From Apilactobacillus timberlakei (GTDB lineage: Bacteria; Bacillota; Bacilli; Lactobacillales; Lactobacillaceae), in contig NZ_POST01000001.1 of assembly GCF_002993965.1 (NCBI RefSeq), positions 106,519 to 170,518 of the forward strand: a stretch of DNA of 64,000 nucleotides, in the 5' to 3' direction. Every line of letters starts with the position of its first letter. The first letter of the stretch is position 1. This document shows positions 24,795-62,530 of this stretch, piece by piece. A program made the translations under genes and the position numbers. The notes under the pieces are model-generated. The model made no database searches, was not told the DNA's origin, and was given only the letters and a program-made list of their open reading frames with translations.

Positions 24795-24825
24795 AGTAAA
24801 TGGGAGCTTAAAAGCTTATCATGCT

Positions 24826-24878
24826 GGTCTTTTATCAGTTTACACTGATAATTATTTTTGATAATATACTTAAAGACC
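24826..24878 (+). other. Structured 5' leader of APC permease gene
   Basis: GGTCTTT (24826-24832) pairs with AAAGACC (24872-24878) and encloses a hairpin ATCAGT-4-ACTGAT. The closing arm ends two bases before the AAAGGAG ribosome site, so the structure may affect translation. It does not match a riboswitch class that I know. Confidence 0.4.
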
Positions 24879-24892
24879 ATGAAAGGAGTATT

Positions 24893-26518
24893 ATGAAAAA
24901 AAATAATAATTCAGGAAAGATAGGTTTATTTCAGATTGTAATGTTGGGACTCAGTTCCATTATTGGTTCAGGTTGGTTATTCGGATCTTGGGAGGCTTCC
25001 AAGGTTGCTGGGCCAGCTGCTATTCTATCTTGGATCGTTGGTGCCATCGTTATTGGTGCCATTGCATTCAACTATATTGAACTTGGTTCTATGTTCCCAG
25101 AAAGTGGTGGAATGAGTAAATATGCTCAATACACCCACGGTTCTTTACTAGGATTTATAGCTGCTTGGGCTAACTGGGTATCATTGGTTACTTTGATTCC
25201 AATTGAAGCTGTTGCAGCTGTGCAATACATGGGTTCTTGGCCTTGGAAATGGGCACATTGGACACATGGTTTCTTGGTAAATGGTGAAATATCCAATACC
25301 GGTTTATTTGTCGTTTTTCTTTTCATATTAGTCTTTACATTATTAAACTATTGGTCTGTTAATTTATTAGCTCGATTCACTAGTTTTATTTCAATTTTCA
25401 AACTAGGAATTCCATTATTAACAATAATTATGTTATTAATGTCTGGTTTCCATTCAGGAAACTTTGCTTCTCAAGGATTTATGCCTTATGGTAGTGCTGC
25501 TATTTTCTCAGCTACAACCGCTTCTGGTATTATTTTCTCATATAATGCATTTCAAGTTGTTATCAATATGGGTAAGGAAATTAAAAATCCTAAGAGAAAT
25601 ATTGCATTGGGAATTACAATTTCACTTGCAATTAGTATTGTAATTTATGTTCTATTACAATTCACATTTATCGGTACTATAGTACCTCAAGACTTAGCTA
25701 ATGGTTGGCATGGAGTGGATTTCCAATCACCATTTGCTGACTTAGCTATCTTGTTAGGTATTCATTGGTTAGCCGTACTATTGTATTTTGATGCATTTGT
25801 ATCACCATTTGGTACCGGAGTTTCCTTCGTTGCTCAAACTGGTCGTACATTAGCAGCTATGGTGCAAAATGAACATATGCCTAAGTTTATTGGTAAAATC
25901 AATAAACGTTGGGGTGTCCCAAGAATGGCTATGGTTGTTAACCTTGTTATTAGTGTATTATTAGTAGCAATATTCAGAAGTTGGGGTACACTTGCTAGTG
26001 TTATTTCTACTTCTACTTTAATTGCTTACTTAACTGGTCCTGTTACTGTTACTGCACTAAGACAAATGGCACCAAACTTTAAACGTCCTATTCGTTTGAA
26101 GTTATTAAAAATTATGGCCCCGTTAGCCTTCGTACTTGCAAGTTTAGCAACTTACTGGGCAATGTGGCCAACAACTGTTAAAGTAATTCTTGTTATCTTA
26201 TTAGGTTTACCGTTCTACTTCTATTTCGAATGGAAGACTGGTTGGAAGAAAACTAGAAATCAATTTACTGGAAGTTTCTGGATGATTGGTTACTTAATTT
26301 TTATTTCAATTATTTCTTACATGGGATCAACACCATTTGGTGGTCAAAACTGGATTCCATATCCATTAGACTTTGTCGTTATCATTATTTCATCACTCGT
26401 ATTCTACAAATGGGGAATTTCAAGTGCTATGGTAACTAAAGATCTTCACAATGCCAAAGAAGTAAATGATGAAATCAACTTAGAAGATTTCGAAGATGAA
26501 GACAACAAAGATAAATAA
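24893..26518 (+). CDS. APC-superfamily amino acid permease
   Basis: Integral membrane amino acid transporter of 541 aa with about 12-14 membrane segments. The opening SSIIGSGWLFGSWEASKVAGPAA matches the first-helix substrate site of the APC family and is close to the YveA-type aspartate/proton symporters; the substrate is inferred only. The start is the ATG at 24893 directly after AAAGGAG, not the upstream in-frame ATG at 24821, which lies in the structured leader. A terminator follows. Confidence 0.85.
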   Translation: MKKNNNSGKIGLFQIVMLGLSSIIGSGWLFGSWEASKVAGPAAILSWIVGAIVIGAIAFNYIELGSMFPESGGMSKYAQYTHGSLLGFIAAWANWVSLVTLIPIEAVAAVQYMGSWPWKWAHWTHGFLVNGEISNTGLFVVFLFILVFTLLNYWSVNLLARFTSFISIFKLGIPLLTIIMLLMSGFHSGNFASQGFMPYGSAAIFSATTASGIIFSYNAFQVVINMGKEIKNPKRNIALGITISLAISIVIYVLLQFTFIGTIVPQDLANGWHGVDFQSPFADLAILLGIHWLAVLLYFDAFVSPFGTGVSFVAQTGRTLAAMVQNEHMPKFIGKINKRWGVPRMAMVVNLVISVLLVAIFRSWGTLASVISTSTLIAYLTGPVTVTALRQMAPNFKRPIRLKLLKIMAPLAFVLASLATYWAMWPTTVKVILVILLGLPFYFYFEWKTGWKKTRNQFTGSFWMIGYLIFISIISYMGSTPFGGQNWIPYPLDFVVIIISSLVFYKWGISSAMVTKDLHNAKEVNDEINLEDFEDEDNKDK

Positions 26519-26538: not shown

Positions 26539-26569
26539 AAAAGAGTAAGCTATAAGGCTTACTCTTTTT
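26539..26569 (+). terminator. Terminator of APC permease gene
   Basis: AAAAGAGTAAGC / GCTTACTCTTTT stem with a six-base loop and a following T-run. Confidence 0.85.
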
Positions 26570-26636
26570 ATTATGCTTGACTTTTATAAGTCTTAATTTT
26601 AGAATTAATGTTAATAAATGAAAGGAGAAAGAAACC

Positions 26637-26696
26637 ATGAGAAATATTTTACAAAATTTATTATTAGTTTCTACTTGGCAAAGCTGGTGTTATTAA
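26637..26696 (+). CDS. Leader peptide with two Trp codons
   Basis: A 19-codon open frame, MRNILQNLLLVSTWQSWCY, with an AAAGGAG site nine bases upstream. Trp codons are at 26676-26678 and 26685-26687, close to the stop. Trp is rare, so two in 19 codons directly before a Trp-type transporter operon points to a translation-sensing leader. The stop codon lies in the first arm of the hairpin chain described next. The peptide is not in any family I recognise. Confidence 0.72.
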   Translation: MRNILQNLLLVSTWQSWCY

Positions 26697-26876
26697 ATCG
26701 CATTAATTTATACAGATGCGATTTAATTAGATGTCTATATAATTAAGCGCATCTGTACCGGCTTCTTTCTCACGAATAATAAAAAGCCTGTGCGGAATGA
26801 ATTCAAAACACCACAGGTATTGCTAAACCTTTTAATTAAGCGGATAACCTGTAGTGTTTGGGTTATCCGCTTTTTT
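26692..26876 (+). promoter_or_regulatory. Trp-responsive attenuator leader with chained hairpins
   Basis: Arms and partners: 1 (26692-26703) with 2 (26716-26727), 12 bp perfect; 2 (26711-26728) with 3 (26741-26757), 16 bp; 3 (CGCA 26748, GGCTT 26760) with 4 (AAGCC 26784, TGCG 26791); 4 (CCTGTG 26787-26792) with 5 (CACAGG 26812-26817); 5 (26806-26818) with 6 (26847-26859), 12 of 13 pairs; 6 (26838-26849) with 7 (26861-26872) is the terminator, followed by six T. Each pairing excludes the next, so ribosome position at the Trp codons could be relayed to the terminator. There is no T-box TGGN bulge here. Confidence 0.65.
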
Positions 26877-26921
26877 ATTGGAATAATTTATTAATAACAT
26901 CAAATAAAGGAGTTTACATAA

Positions 26922-27917
26922 ATGAAACGTTTATATTCAGCAATTATATTACTATGCTTAATACTGGCATTTGGTTATTACAAAGAACAACAACCAATGA
27001 AAATTAGTCGAGATCATATTCCAGAAGTTGGGATTCTTCAATTAACTGAACACCCTGCTTTAGATGCCATTCATCATGGAATTATTCAAGGATTAAAGGA
27101 GTCTGGTTTTCAACCTGGTAAGAATATAAAAATTGATTTTCAAAATGCCGAAAATGACCAAAGCAATTTAAAAACTATGAGCACTAAGTTTGCTAACGAA
27201 AATGTTGATTTATCCATTGGAATTGCTACTCCTTCAGCACAAGTTTTAGCAAATACTGTTAAAAATAGACCATTAGTTTTAGGTGCTATCACTGATCCTA
27301 AATCAGCTGGATTAGTTGATTCTAATCAAAAGCCTGGTAGAAATACCACTGGGGTATCTGACTTACCACCTATGAAGCAACAAATAGATTTAATCAAACA
27401 AATCATGCCTCATATGAAAACCCTTGGTATTATTTATACTTCTAGTGATGATTCAGCAACTAGTCAATATCAAAGATTTACTCAATTATGTAAACAAGAA
27501 GGAATTAGAGTTAAAGGATATTCTATTGCGAACACTAATGATTTAAATCAAGTGGCCACACAAATGGTACAAAATGTGAATGCTGTTTATGTTCCAAACG
27601 ATAATACTGTTGCTTCAGCCATTCAAACTTTAGTAGCCGTCGCAAATAAGCGTAACGTTCCAATCTTCCCTACTGCATCTAATGTTGTTAAGAATGGTGG
27701 TTTAGCAACATATGGACTAAATCAATTTAAATTAGGTGTTGAAACTGGAAAAGTTACTGCACAAATTTTAAAAGGTAAAAATGCTTCTAATATGCCTATT
27801 CAAACATTAAATCGTGGTGATTTAGCCATTAATCTAAACCAAGCTAAAAAGCTAGGTATAAATATTCCACAATCATTAATTCAAAAAGCTGAAAGACAAG
27901 GAGTGATCTACAAATGA
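26922..27917 (+). CDS. trpX: TrpX-type ABC transporter substrate-binding protein
   Basis: Substrate-binding protein of the ABC_sub_bind family (COG2984-like), 331 aa, with EVGILQLTEHPALDAIHHGI, AITDPKSAGLV and the YVPNDNTV region typical of the family. Together with the next two genes it forms the predicted tryptophan importer TrpXYZ. The N-terminus is a hydrophobic helix (LYSAIILLCLILAFGYY) without a proper lipobox, so it is probably membrane-anchored by an uncleaved helix. The Trp leader upstream supports the substrate assignment. AAAGGAG precedes the ATG. Confidence 0.85.
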   Translation: MKRLYSAIILLCLILAFGYYKEQQPMKISRDHIPEVGILQLTEHPALDAIHHGIIQGLKESGFQPGKNIKIDFQNAENDQSNLKTMSTKFANENVDLSIGIATPSAQVLANTVKNRPLVLGAITDPKSAGLVDSNQKPGRNTTGVSDLPPMKQQIDLIKQIMPHMKTLGIIYTSSDDSATSQYQRFTQLCKQEGIRVKGYSIANTNDLNQVATQMVQNVNAVYVPNDNTVASAIQTLVAVANKRNVPIFPTASNVVKNGGLATYGLNQFKLGVETGKVTAQILKGKNASNMPIQTLNRGDLAINLNQAKKLGINIPQSLIQKAERQGVIYK

Positions 27918-28810
27918 GTTTAATAATTTCTGCAGTTGGGCAAGGTCTATTATGGGCAGTCATTGGTGTCGGCCTTTACTTAACATTTAGAATTTTAGAC
28001 TTCCCTGATATGACTGTCGAAGGAACGTTTCCAATGGGAGCAGCTACTGCTGTTACAGCTATTTCACATGGTGTTTCACCTATTATCGCAACGATTCTTG
28101 CCTTCTTAGTGGGTTGTATTGCTGGACTAGTAACCGGCCTCTTATACACAAAAGCAAGAATTCCTGTACTATTAGCTGGTATTTTAGTAATGACTGCTTC
28201 TTATTCAATTGATTTAAGAATCATGGGTAAACCTAATCAATCATTACTTGGTATGCCTACATTATTAAGCGGTAAATTTTTCCAATCTTTACCACCATAC
28301 TTTGATAGTGTTGCTCTAGGATTCATTGTCATTGTAATTGTTACAACGATTCTAGTTTACTTTTTACAAACAGACTTAGGACAAGCTTTTATCGCTACTG
28401 GTGATAATGAAAACATGGCCGAATCATTAGGTATCAATACCGATAATATGAAGATCATGGGTGTAAGTGTTTCAAATGGTCTAATTGCACTAGGTGGTGC
28501 ATTAGTAGCCCAAAATAATGGTTACTCAGATGTAAATATGGGAATTGGAATCATTGTAGTTGCCCTTGCATCGATTATCATTGGTGAAGTTATTTTTGGT
28601 GATTTAACCATGATTCAAAGATTAATTGCCGTCACTATTGGTAGTATTATTTATCGTTTAGTCTTATTACTGGTTCTACAATTAGGCTTCAACGCTACCG
28701 ATTTAAACTTAATTTCATCAATCTTATTAGCAATTTTCATGGGATTACCAGCATTAGAAAGTAAATTCCATTTAAAACATGTCTTGAAACGGGGGTTAAA
28801 GAATGACTAA
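27914..28810 (+). CDS. trpY: TrpY-type ABC transporter permease
   Basis: A 298-aa membrane subunit with about eight or nine hydrophobic segments, of the COG4120 type related to branched-chain amino acid permeases; FPDMTVEGTFPMGAA at the start is characteristic. Its ATG overlaps the trpX stop (ATGA), and its end overlaps trpZ by eight bases, so the three genes are translationally coupled. Confidence 0.86.
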   Translation: MSLIISAVGQGLLWAVIGVGLYLTFRILDFPDMTVEGTFPMGAATAVTAISHGVSPIIATILAFLVGCIAGLVTGLLYTKARIPVLLAGILVMTASYSIDLRIMGKPNQSLLGMPTLLSGKFFQSLPPYFDSVALGFIVIVIVTTILVYFLQTDLGQAFIATGDNENMAESLGINTDNMKIMGVSVSNGLIALGGALVAQNNGYSDVNMGIGIIVVALASIIIGEVIFGDLTMIQRLIAVTIGSIIYRLVLLLVLQLGFNATDLNLISSILLAIFMGLPALESKFHLKHVLKRGLKND

Positions 28811-29573
28811 ACCAATCTTTCAATTAAAAAATATTGTTAAAACTGTCAATGAAGATACACCAGAACAATTAAATATTTTAGATAATATCAATTTAGATAT
28901 TTATCCAGGAGATTTTATTACCATTTTAGGTTCTAATGGAGCCGGTAAATCTACCCTTTTTAATACAATTGGTGGTAATTTAAAACCTAATTCTGGAAAA
29001 GTAATTTATAATGGTAAAGATATAACAAGGATGTCGGTTGTAAGAAGAACTGAATTTTTAAGTCGTGTTTTCCAAGATCCTAAATTAGGTACCGCTCCTC
29101 GAATGACCGTTGCTGAAAATTTATTATTAGCAGAAAAACGTGGTAAAAATCATTCATTAGTTCCTCGTAATCTTAAAAGTCAGATGCGTAAATTCAAAGA
29201 AATAACTGCTAAAATGAATAATAATTTAGACGATCGACTAGAAACTGCAACTGGTAACCTATCTGGTGGTCAAAGACAAACTTTAAGTTTCTTAATGGCT
29301 ACGATTAATAGACCTGGCATTTTATTATTAGATGAACATACGGCCGCATTAGATCCTAAAACTTCAGAACAATTAATGAATATTACTGATAATACTATTA
29401 ATAAAGAAAAATTAACTTGTTTAATGATTACTCACCATCTAGATGATGCTATCAAATATGGAAATCGTTTATTAGTTCTACATCAAGGTAAAATATCATA
29501 TGATATTTCTGGAGAAGAAAAGAAAAATTTAACTAAAGAAAAATTATTAACCTTCTTTAATGATATTCAATAA
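28803..29573 (+). CDS. trpZ: TrpZ-type ABC transporter ATP-binding protein
   Basis: ATPase of the same importer, 256 aa, COG1101 type: Walker A GSNGAGKST, Q-loop VFQDPKLGT, signature LSGGQRQT and Walker B LLLDEHTAALD, where the family usually has DEHTAALDP. The H-loop is in ITHHLDDA. It completes the three-gene unit and a strong terminator follows. Confidence 0.88.
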   Translation: MTKPIFQLKNIVKTVNEDTPEQLNILDNINLDIYPGDFITILGSNGAGKSTLFNTIGGNLKPNSGKVIYNGKDITRMSVVRRTEFLSRVFQDPKLGTAPRMTVAENLLLAEKRGKNHSLVPRNLKSQMRKFKEITAKMNNNLDDRLETATGNLSGGQRQTLSFLMATINRPGILLLDEHTAALDPKTSEQLMNITDNTINKEKLTCLMITHHLDDAIKYGNRLLVLHQGKISYDISGEEKKNLTKEKLLTFFNDIQ

Positions 29574-37790: not shown

Positions 37791-37942
37791 TATTAATGTT
37801 TGGGGTGCCGTTTAGGCTGAGATAAACCCATTGTACCTGATTCAGGATAATCCCTGCGAAGGAAAACAATACCTTTTACCTTATATCGTTGTGCATTCAA
37901 CAATAATTTAAAGGGCTCCAAACTTTTTGGGGCTCTTTTTTT
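37791..37942 (+). promoter_or_regulatory. TPP riboswitch (THI element) with terminator
   Basis: The aptamer (about 37791-37872) has GGGGTGCC, GGCTGAGAT, ACCTGATTCAGGATAAT and CTGCGAAGGAA, the conserved blocks of the thiamine-pyrophosphate riboswitch. The expression platform ends in a 13-bp terminator AAAGGGCTCCAAA / TTTGGGGCTCTTT (37910-37938) with a T-run. It controls the ykoE-ykoD-ykoC-type genes; TPP binding should stop transcription. Confidence 0.93.
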
Positions 37943-43046: not shown

Positions 43047-43187
43047 GACTAAATGCCTCCCAATAATATAGAAACTAATACTCTATATTGTACATTTAAT
43101 TAATTACTATCACAATTATATAATATGGTAAGGTTGCTTTTTTTAATATTTTAATATATTATCTATTTTAATAATATATATTTTGTT

Positions 43188-43297
43188 GCCTATATAATTA
43201 CTAAAATATGGTTAGTAAGTTTCTACCTGGAACCTTAAATTTCAGACTATAAGCGAAATGATCTAAGTCCTTTTGCTTATGCATAGGGATTTTTTTA
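43188..43297 (+). promoter_or_regulatory. Guanine-class purine riboswitch with terminator
   Basis: P1 GCCTAT / ATAAGC (43188-43193, 43249-43254), P2 TTACTAA / TTAGTAA with the L2 ATATGG, the core TTTCTACC, P3 CTGGAA / TTTCAG with CCTTAAA in L3, and GACTAT in which the specificity base is C (43247), so guanine, hypoxanthine or xanthine is expected, not adenine. A terminator (AAGTCC / GGGATT, T7, 43265-43297) can be prevented when ATAAGC pairs with GCTTAT (43275-43280). Ligand should switch the permease off. The rest of the gap to the asparaginase gene is AT-rich with nothing else clear. Confidence 0.93.
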
Positions 43298-51129: not shown

Positions 51130-51324
51130 GTTAAAATCTCACTTTCAACTAGAATTATATTAATAATGTATATCTCTATTATACATATTTTTATATCAAT
51201 CAGAAATGGTTTGATAATCTTATTATCTATTTTATGTTGACTATTCATAAATTACAATTATAATTATTAATAATTAATTAAAAAATTAGGTTTTGATGAG
51301 AAAAGTATTTAATTAATAATTTTT

Positions 51325-51541
51325 CAGAAAGTTCATGGTTGATGAAAATGAGCAAATTGTTATTAATGAAAATGGTCTCTGAACTTTTATGGGTGATATT
51401 TAACTCATAGCGGTAAGTGCCCGATATAGCACAAAGGAATATGAAAGAAGTTCTGGATAAGGTAGTCTTGAAATAAGGCTATAAATTAAGGTGGTACAGC
51501 GAAGCATTCGCCCTTTTAAATAAGGGACGGATGCTTTTTTA
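51325..51541 (+). promoter_or_regulatory. T-box leader, methionine specific
   Basis: Stem I is closed by AAAGTTC (51329-51335) with GAACTTT (51381-51387). The triplet before the conserved GTCTCTGAA block is ATG (51372-51374), the Met specifier. The antiterminator is AAGG-TGGTACA-GCG ... CGC-CCTT (51488-51515), whose TGGT can pair with ACCA of uncharged tRNA-Met (discriminator A). The terminator AGCAT / ATGCT plus CCCTT / AAGGG ends in a T-run at 51541. Uncharged Met-tRNA should permit mmuP expression. The rest of the 430-base gap is an AT-rich promoter region. Confidence 0.88.
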
Positions 51542-62149: not shown

Positions 62150-62410
62150 CAAAAAGGATTCCTTTGCATGAATGTGGTTACACTCGTACAAAAGAATCCA
62201 AATTTAATGTTCTTCTCATTTTCGGTTTCAATTGTCGAAAGCGCTCCACAAGAAATATTTTCTTGTGACAGTCCATGATCTATTAAACCATGTCCCAGCA
62301 AATAACTACCCACAAGTAATTTTTGCTTCGGCAACCTCGCCTTTCAACAAACTTTAAAAATCATTGTAGTGACTGAGTTTATCTAATATTCTTGGTTGCG
62401 ACCTCTTCGA
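62150..62410 (-). promoter_or_regulatory. Lysine riboswitch (L-box) with terminator
   Basis: The minus strand carries P1 TCGAAG / CTTTCGA, then GAGGTCGCAACC, GAAAGGCGAGGTTGCCGAAGC, GCTGGGACATGG, GACTGTCACAAG and CTTGTGGAGCGC, the conserved L-box blocks (aptamer about 62235-62410). The terminator GGATTC ... GAATCC with T5 (62150-62199) follows. Lysine binding should stop transcription of the whole operon. A promoter upstream has TTGACT (62448-62443), 18 bases, TATTAT (62424-62419). Confidence 0.93.
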
Positions 62411-62530
62411 TTAATTACATAATAAAACTATTTGCCTACTTAAGTCAACTACTTTTTATAACATATTTTTTATATTTTTTATTTACTATATATACATTTT
62501 AAAAATGCATCCATCAAATAAATATGCTGC

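Follow-up and report, generated by a model that had tools for sequence, protein, structure and literature searches.

The closest described relative of the RNA studied here is the trpB motif (RF04312, SRC-39-1), which was published in Nucleic Acids Res. 2024 as a strong riboswitch candidate with covarying hairpins and, by its authors' count, more than 900 representatives in Firmicutes and Fusobacteria (PMC11109978). Its authors speculated that the ligand might be amino-acid-related and left a protein-bound or classic attenuator possible; the words "leader peptide" have 0 occurrences in the main text of that paper.

Two studies of Firmicutes (Naville and Gautheret 2010, PMC2965389; Ashniev et al. 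2022, PMC9413887) reported leader-peptide attenuators in which a His-codon run precedes hisS, hisZ or a his operon; the groups named are bacilli, the B. cereus group, some Eubacteriales (Peptostreptococcaceae, Lutispora) and Erysipelotrichales, and the relevant passages of these two reports state no tie to RF04312 or to other amino acids. The Leu-rich attenuator peptide of S. aureus ilv (PMC5794164) is a further case of leader-peptide attenuation in a Firmicute, at different genes, and PMC2864571 lists a Leu/phe leader motif of Lactococcus lactis. The ilvB-II motif of Corynebacterium (PMC10272879, 2023) was likewise a computational RNA motif that came to be attributed to a uORF attenuator, although its genes, its phylum and its signal (branched-chain amino acids) differ from those described here. 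The trpXYZ operon of S. suis shares both operon and signal with our locus but has a T-box, in which the tRNA is bound directly by RNA and no peptide takes part (PMC9382623), and a T-box survey (PMC2494555) gives Trp T-boxes at some ABC transporters of other Firmicutes. Among the papers listed in searches of the open-access literature there was no report of a Trp leader attenuator or of an RF04312 attenuator in these bacteria, and for the names of the RF04312 motif only PMC11109978 was found from 2023 onward.

Here we analyse a leader within a 64,000-nucleotide stretch of Apilactobacillus timberlakei DNA (contig NZ_POST01000001.1; hereafter the window). We consider it likely, at a probability of roughly 80%, that this leader controls trpXYZ as a ribosome-mediated transcription attenuator responding to charged tRNA-Trp, and that it is ON when a ribosome stalls at Trp.

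The trpXYZ locus

The genes and expression signals of the locus are as follows.

26577-26605, + strand: promoter-like site TTGACT-17-TAGAAT, from a pattern search; similar TTGAC elements lie upstream in relatives (by eye)
26637-26696, + strand: leader peptide ORF, 19 codons MRNILQNLLLVSTWQSWCY plus stop; a WQSW or WQGW ORF is present in 16/16 genus genomes
26838-26872, + strand: intrinsic terminator stem-loop followed by a U tract, from a pattern search; pairing kept in the genus
26922-27917, + strand: trpX, tryptophan ABC transporter binding protein (NF041285, 447.9 bits against a cut-off of 390)
27914-28810, + strand: trpY-like permease (BPD_transp_2 match)
28803-29573, + strand: trpZ-like ATPase (ABC_tran match)

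The TrpX of the window is 98% identical to that of A. micheneri, and a search of Apilactobacillus found TrpX in 16/16 genomes. The trpA gene was absent from the window's own genome and, counting that one, from 14/16 genus genomes; the cell is thus probably reliant on Trp import, which makes induction of the importer at Trp shortage a sensible sign of regulation. The two genomes in which trpA was found (G006 and G008) suggest gain or patchy loss of Trp synthesis within the genus. A terminator-like hairpin at 26539-26568 lies 3' of the upstream amino-acid permease gene (ORF 24821-26518), so a separate promoter for trpXYZ is likely. The RNA from 26600 to 26890 folded better than 200/200 dinucleotide shuffles (z -5.3).

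Rfam scans found neither a T-box (RF00230) nor any other class above cut-off at the leader. RF00513, the E. coli trp leader model, was not among the leader's Rfam matches at E up to 10. Elsewhere in the window there were matches above cut-off to a T-box (51284-51518, + strand), a lysine riboswitch (62230-62415, - strand), a purine riboswitch (43170-43269, + strand) and a TPP riboswitch (37791-37881, + strand).

The leader ORF and its alternative pairings

The leader ORF runs from an ATG at 26637 to a TAA at 26694-26696, with Trp codons at 26676-26678 and 26685-26687 and a Shine-Dalgarno sequence around 26624-26627 that rates as a good ribosome site. The earlier note on this DNA had proposed a 19-codon WQSW leader peptide before trpXYZ, to be doubted if close relatives had lost the Trp codons; the ORF with both Trp codons (WQSW/WQGW) is kept in 16/16 genus genomes, while the first half of the peptide is variable. 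Around and within this ORF lie the following RNA segments.

26625-26632, + strand: leader Shine-Dalgarno segment GAGAAAGA, pairing with b' (26764-26771); paired in 94% of cells, with a double-sided change at one pair
26681-26690, + strand: arm a, the last base of the Gln codon and the Ser-Trp-Cys codons, pairing with b (26757-26764 and neighbours)
26693-26726, + strand: P1 hairpin (1:2 of the earlier note), arms 26693-26703 and 26716-26726
26712-26756, + strand: P2 hairpin (2:3 of the earlier note), arms 26712-26720 and 26748-26756, matching the first hairpin of RF04312
26752-26764, + strand: arm b, the right shoulder of P2 plus ACCGGCUU, with a or c as partner
26764-26771, + strand: arm b' UCUUUCUC, complementary to the leader Shine-Dalgarno
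26784-26796, + strand: arm c AAGCCUGUGCGGA, with b or d as partner
26807-26818, + strand: arm d, forming the anti-antiterminator with c and the antiterminator with e
26847-26858, + strand: arm e, within the terminator; three pairs of d:e changed on both sides and 87% of its cells paired in the ON set

The c:d hairpin of the window has no U tract and is followed by a second terminator. In the E. coli trp leader, as in the leader proposed here, a peptide with Trp codons is used and starvation leads to antitermination, and our a, b, c and d match its regions 1-4 in order; the window leader differs in that a P1/P2 module of about 58 nt is inserted between the stop and b, the Shine-Dalgarno is paired with b', and a second relay (c:d, d:e) precedes the terminator.

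Pairings were followed in an alignment of 12 of the 16 genus leaders, four near copies being left out. By eye, the rows for L013 (ribosome site) and for L015 and L016 (P1) look misaligned in this alignment (A2), which lowers the pairing counts there. Paired cells numbered 91/96 for SD:b', 114/120 for a:b, 108/108 for P2, 72/72 for c:d, 113/120 for the terminator and 106/111 for P1, where 21 further cells were gapped; d:e was the least well kept helix (116/140 cells). In b:c, 12/13 positions pair in 10/12 leaders and 10/13 in L015 and L016, and a double change in L004 (G-C to A-U) preserves both b:c and a:b. Taken as a set, the OFF pairings were paired in 97.1% of 480 cells against 36-43% in slid controls, with double-sided changes at 5 pairs and in 12 cells (reached by 6 and 0 of 500 shuffles, respectively). 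For the ON pairings (1:2, 3:4, 5:6) the figure was 93.2% of 368 cells against 25-48%, and double-sided changes were seen at 5 pairs and in 10 cells (19 and 1 of 500 shuffles). The count of further pair types in these 12 leaders was not above shuffles (500/500 for OFF and 497/500 for ON reached it). Because the sequences are related the shuffles are lenient, and the slid controls are the firmer contrast. Antiterminator and terminator, which are mutually exclusive, are both conserved.

The earlier note had drawn a chain of six mutually exclusive pairings that ends in the terminator. We place its arms at 26693-26703 (1), 26712-26726 (2), 26748-26764 (3), 26784-26796 (4), 26807-26818 (5) and 26847-26858 (6), and the terminator at 26838-26872. 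All six pairings are kept in the 12-leader alignment, and the covariation that the note had called for is present in both the ON and OFF sets. As a full account of the pairing the chain falls short by two conserved pairings, a:b and SD:b'.

Predicted folding with a ribosome on Apilactobacillus leaders

We folded the nascent chain up to the 3' arm of the terminator after removing everything up to the 3' edge of the ribosome. This edge was set 14 nt from the first base of the codon in the A site, and edges of 12 and 16 nt were also tried with the 12 genus leaders. With the chain ending after arm c, the outer part of b:c (3:4) was predicted at 0.70-0.80 for a first-Trp stall, 0.04-0.20 for a stall at the second Trp, 0.12-0.30 at the stop and 0.00 with no ribosome. 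In ribosome-free folding 3:4 was at 0.00-0.11, and a:b and SD:b' stood at 0.74-0.86, near 0.86 and 0.8, respectively, for this chain length. A stall at the second Trp codon is thus predicted not to give the long b:c. Further downstream, d:e was at 0.50-0.63 for the first-Trp stall against 0.43-0.53 at the stop, which does not separate the two states, and in full-length genus leaders the terminator had a mean probability of 0.75 without a ribosome, falling to 0.43 for a first-Trp stall, 0.42 for a second-Trp stall and 0.30 for a ribosome at the stop. In the window's own sequence, 5:6 hardly varied among the four states when the chain was cut after arm 6 (0.86-0.87), and in the full leader the terminator was at 0.93 free and at 0.00-0.01 with a ribosome at either Trp codon or the stop. 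In this model, then, equilibrium folding splits translated from untranslated leaders, and splits the first Trp from the stop at b:c only.

These predictions divide the earlier note's reasoning, by which the parity of the chain would send a first-Trp stall to read-through and a ribosome at the stop to termination. Its reasoning holds at 3:4 and breaks down at 5:6 and the terminator: in full leaders a stop ribosome gives the terminator less often (0.30) than a first-Trp ribosome does (0.43), the reverse of a stop-state OFF, and this has slightly lowered our confidence in the overall reading. Its implication that a leader with no ribosome would be read through runs against the free folding, where a:b and SD:b' prevail over 3:4. 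Since a ribosome parked at the stop is not OFF in equilibrium folding, we propose that OFF is decided when the ribosome is released, so that in the window's genus its departure, and not its stay at the stop, would set OFF.

Relatives across Lactobacillales

Against RF04312 the window leader scored 31.3 bits (E 0.015) in a permissive Rfam scan, below the gathering cut-off of 59 bits, with the match covering the part from P2 to the terminator; in 3/11 genus loci scanned the score was 37-39 bits. Leader and motif have in common the first hairpin and its right shoulder (P2 and b), the latter usable as an antiterminator strand, then a terminator, and a position before amino-acid ABC transporter or trpB genes; the window leader lies, as expected for RF04312, before an amino-acid transporter gene. 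We propose that it is a divergent relative of this motif.

A search of 395 Lactobacillales genomes with RF04312 gave matches in 236 at E <= 0.01, 59 of them above cut-off, and the window's own genome was not among the matches at that E-value. In 30/30 best-match loci an SD-preceded ORF (one with GTG) carries Trp near its end, typically as WQ(N/S)WRR or WQSR, and stops 9-27 nt before the motif. With 40 further loci, hand-picked from the listed matches for spread over genera, a fixed rule found a Trp leader ORF in 69/70 RF04312 matches against 65/3500 dinucleotide shuffles; the 70th (L166) ends in ...GWQSR by eye, with a ribosome site that the rule does not accept. The gene 3' of these 70 matches was TrpX in 62, TrpB in 4 and unassigned in 4. 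The Rfam model begins after the leader's stop codon, so the ORF and its pairing with the shoulder are left out of it. Two further RF04312 matches (L096 and L097, 41.5 and 38.1 bits) were set aside as chance: no fitting leader was seen in the frames printed and the neighbouring genes were unrelated.

Starting from the gene instead, named trpX loci (77 contigs) show a like peptide end across many genera, and the rule found a leader in 71/80 trpX loci scanned (16 genus loci and L030-L093). Among the nine leaderless loci, L030 has the same peptide end without ATG (by eye), L072 has 24 nt upstream of the match, and L089, from Streptococcus, gives a T-box-like match whose 89.9 bits lie below the cut-off of 93; the six others had neither a leader nor a replacing Rfam match. 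The earlier note's remark that T-boxes govern this transporter in related bacteria is borne out for Streptococcus, by L089 and by the reported S. suis trpX T-box (PMC9382623). The leader is no oddity of this locus, as relatives exist across Lactobacillales. Upstream of trpX in Lentilactobacillus rapi (L044), two copies of a unit exceeding 100 nt, which starts AGGACAGCTACTCCAAGCAGA, were seen by eye after the leader terminator.

The median distance from stop to terminator, with the terminator chosen automatically, was 85 nt in RF04312 matches, 107 in the lactobacilli of the trpX scan and 112.5 in Apilactobacillus, and some other lactobacilli (e.g., L033 and L034) resemble by eye the window's layout of c:d and a second terminator. 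We read the second relay as a later addition to a simpler attenuator, the number of steps being such that the sign is kept.

Codon arm and predicted effect of ribosome position in 97 leaders

For 97 non-redundant leaders the codon arm was taken to start with the first Trp codon and end at the stop (18 nt + 2 at most). Its pairing energy averaged -15.1 kcal/mol with the downstream strand of its own leader and -12.8 kcal/mol with strands swapped in from the others, and 82/97 leaders beat the median swap (p 4e-13). Examples of codon-arm exchange are AAGCCGGTAA with GTGCCGGCTT (L078), AAGCCGATAA with GTGTCGGCTT (L165) and AAACTGGCGTAGATA with GTATCTATGCTGGTT (L103). The corresponding swap test for the ribosome site was weak (55/97 beat the median swap, p 0.013; 100-nt search window, all genera), so that SD:b' is well supported within the genus and only partly outside it. 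TIR:b' energies were discarded as a count, the automatic choice of b having picked a later region in, e.g., L033, L051 and L068.

The codon after the first Trp is CAA in 89/97 leaders and CAG in 1/97, giving Gln in 90/97; CAA is more constant here than the pairing with b seems to require. The first paired base freed at a first-Trp stall lies upstream of the edge of a stop ribosome in 97/97 leaders, at a median of 16 nt after the first Trp codon, a distance whose lower bound is built in since the folded stretch starts at 13 nt.

In 94/97 leaders (three without a terminator by the rule were excluded) the predicted probability that the 5' arm of the terminator is paired upstream was 0.67 for a first-Trp stall, 0.44 for a stop ribosome and 0.38 with none, the value rising from stop to first Trp in 71 leaders and falling in 5. 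Scanning the ribosome over positions counted in codons before the stop, we found the favourable range to be -6 to -4 where the Trp is at -6 (30 leaders), -6 to -3 where it is at -4 (30 leaders; shallow, 0.59-0.63 against about 0.5) and -10 to -8 where it is elsewhere (21 leaders), while the -5 class (5 leaders) peaks at -7/-6, off its regulatory codon. For most classes the best position thus moves with the regulatory codon; several of the classes show a second rise when the ribosome is past the stop. For 8 Apilactobacillus leaders this generic test showed no effect (0.46 first Trp, 0.49 stop, 0.52 free), possibly from a poor automatic choice of terminator.

Clostridial relatives with other codons

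A phylum-wide RF04312 search matched 4/398 genomes, one of which (L095) has a Phe-codon leader before a sodium symporter. In the clostridial order around L095, 45/225 genomes match at E <= 0.001, and in these 225 genomes no match was above the RF04312 cut-off. We fetched 66/67 matches, leaving out one 146 nt from a contig end (G874:C129), and dropped L223, an overlapping copy of L231, before counting, which left 65.

A leader ORF was found in 64/65 matches, L227, where none was found, being counted as a miss. With one fixed pattern, codon sets of His, Phe/Tyr, Leu, Val-Val-Phe or spaced Trp occurred in 62/65 against 54/3250 in shuffles, and HHH in 12/65 against 0/3250. The 12 HHH leaders are exactly the 12 members of the hisS/hisZ gene cluster, a coincidence of probability 1/C(64,12) = 3e-13, and His runs before hisS and hisZ are likewise what the reported Firmicutes attenuators have (PMC2965389, PMC9413887). 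The other leaders precede SNF-type symporters (36; Phe, Tyr or Leu), BPD_transp_2 permeases (8; FFF, VVF or similar), Branch_AA_trans carriers (6; Phe/Tyr) and a TrpX-like binding protein (1; FFF), with one more leader whose gene is unassigned. Family names were assigned by models for 9 representatives and by BLAST clustering for the others; in the hisS/hisZ cluster models named two of the 12 genes, and the hisZ-like L167 is below the NCBIfam hisZ cut-off.

All six carriers of the Branch_AA_trans cluster (L171, L179, L185, L189, L190, L225), a family name given by model for L171 only, have leader ends rich in Phe/Tyr, a hint that their substrates are aromatic and not branched-chain amino acids. 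TrpXYZ-like clostridial ABC genes have leader ends such as FFFNSQFR and VVFNSQFR (L173, L191, L199, L207, L208, L214, L221, L228, L229), so their signal may be Phe (or Val/Phe) instead of Trp.

Here too the codon arm pairs with its own shoulder, in up to 19 pairs: 54/56 non-redundant leaders favoured their own strand (-17.3 against -12.6, p 1e-9). The terminator 5' arm was predicted to be paired upstream at 0.81 with a ribosome at the codon stall, 0.48 at the stop and 0.53 free (56 leaders; 46 up and 3 down from stop to codon stall). Favourable positions were -5 to -3 for His (12 leaders), -9 to -4 for Phe/Tyr (39) and -8 to -4 for Leu (5), the last being already at 0.77 at -11.

Proposed mechanism and alternatives

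Our reading of the window leader builds on the conservation of the ORF and its codons, on base pairs that are conserved and covary, on the agreement of codons with genes and, in the wider class, on the agreement of folding with codon position. From these we infer that the leader is translated, that ribosomes stall on it, that transcription terminates in it and that it responds to Trp. When Trp is scarce, the first ribosome would stall at the first Trp codon, hiding arm a and leaving the 5' arm of P1 free; P1 would then form and take up the 5' arm of P2, b would pair over its full length with c, and d, thereby freed, would block the terminator by pairing with e (ON). When Trp is plentiful, the ribosome would move fast to the stop, covering the 5' arm of P1 so that P2 forms and b:c is weakened, and then leave; upon its release a:b and SD:b' would pair, c:d would form and the terminator would stand (OFF). 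The lock made by a:b and SD:b' would also keep untranslated leaders OFF.

One alternative is that ribosome occupancy alone matters, any ribosome on the leader breaking SD:b' and a:b to give read-through, so that leader translation is sensed more than Trp. Within the genus, the presence or absence of a ribosome does make the largest predicted difference, and a ribosome at the stop is predicted to leave the leader no less open than the Trp stall. We nevertheless think this unlikely, as the Trp codons are kept in 16/16 genus genomes, the long b:c is predicted mainly at the first-Trp stall, and class-wide folding separates codon stall from stop. Another possibility starts from TnaC, in which the ribosome is arrested through binding of free Trp: WQxW might be an arrest motif of that kind, as the nearly constant Gln after the first Trp (90/97; 89 CAA, 1 CAG) would suit. 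The codon itself is almost fixed, beyond the residue, which indicates a constraint on the RNA, the relatives carry plain runs of His, Phe, Tyr or Leu codons, and arrest by plentiful Trp would have the opposite sign for an importer; we regard Trp-induced arrest as very unlikely.

That RF04312-type RNAs bind an amino acid or related ligand directly, with the ORF incidental, is the published view of a strong candidate with covarying hairpins (PMC11109978). Its authors themselves left an attenuator possible, and an SD-preceded ORF stands before 69/70 RF04312 matches, the codon runs vary among matches with all 12 His runs preceding hisS/hisZ-type genes, and the ORF's own codons pair with the right shoulder of the motif; the chance that these are riboswitches seems to us slim. 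A T-box or protein-bound attenuator at the window leader has the streptococcal trpX T-box (PMC9382623) and the sub-threshold L089 match as precedents, but no T-box match is found at the leader although the same scan finds the T-box at 51284, and we give it next to no credence.

With ORFs before the RF04312 matches and codon sets that change among them, the riboswitch candidate looks like a recodable leader-peptide attenuator. We therefore propose that RF04312 is a leader-peptide attenuator family that uses Trp codons in Lactobacillales, its clostridial look-alikes having His, Phe/Tyr or Leu codons instead. On balance we favour the further view that RF04312 and its sub-threshold relatives form one homologous, recodable attenuator family of Bacillota, in which a P1/P2 frame carries a shoulder that pairs with the leader codons, with P2 or with the terminator side; specificity would change by a codon swap with a matching shoulder, and Apilactobacillus and some other lactobacilli would have gained a second relay to a new terminator.

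Implications

If our reading is correct, an orphan riboswitch candidate, with its more than 900 representatives, would move to the leader-peptide class and no futile hunt for its ligand would be needed, and leader-peptide attenuation in Firmicutes would reach far past the scattered His and branched-chain cases. It would also add an architecture in which a pair of hairpins relays the position of the ribosome to a distant arm. Leader codons would then predict the signals or substrates of poorly annotated transporters, such as the BrnQ-type carriers and TrpXYZ-like ABC genes with Phe/Tyr leaders, and, if the family is recodable as proposed, it would be a leader-peptide counterpart of the T-box for Trp, His, Phe, Tyr and Leu genes.
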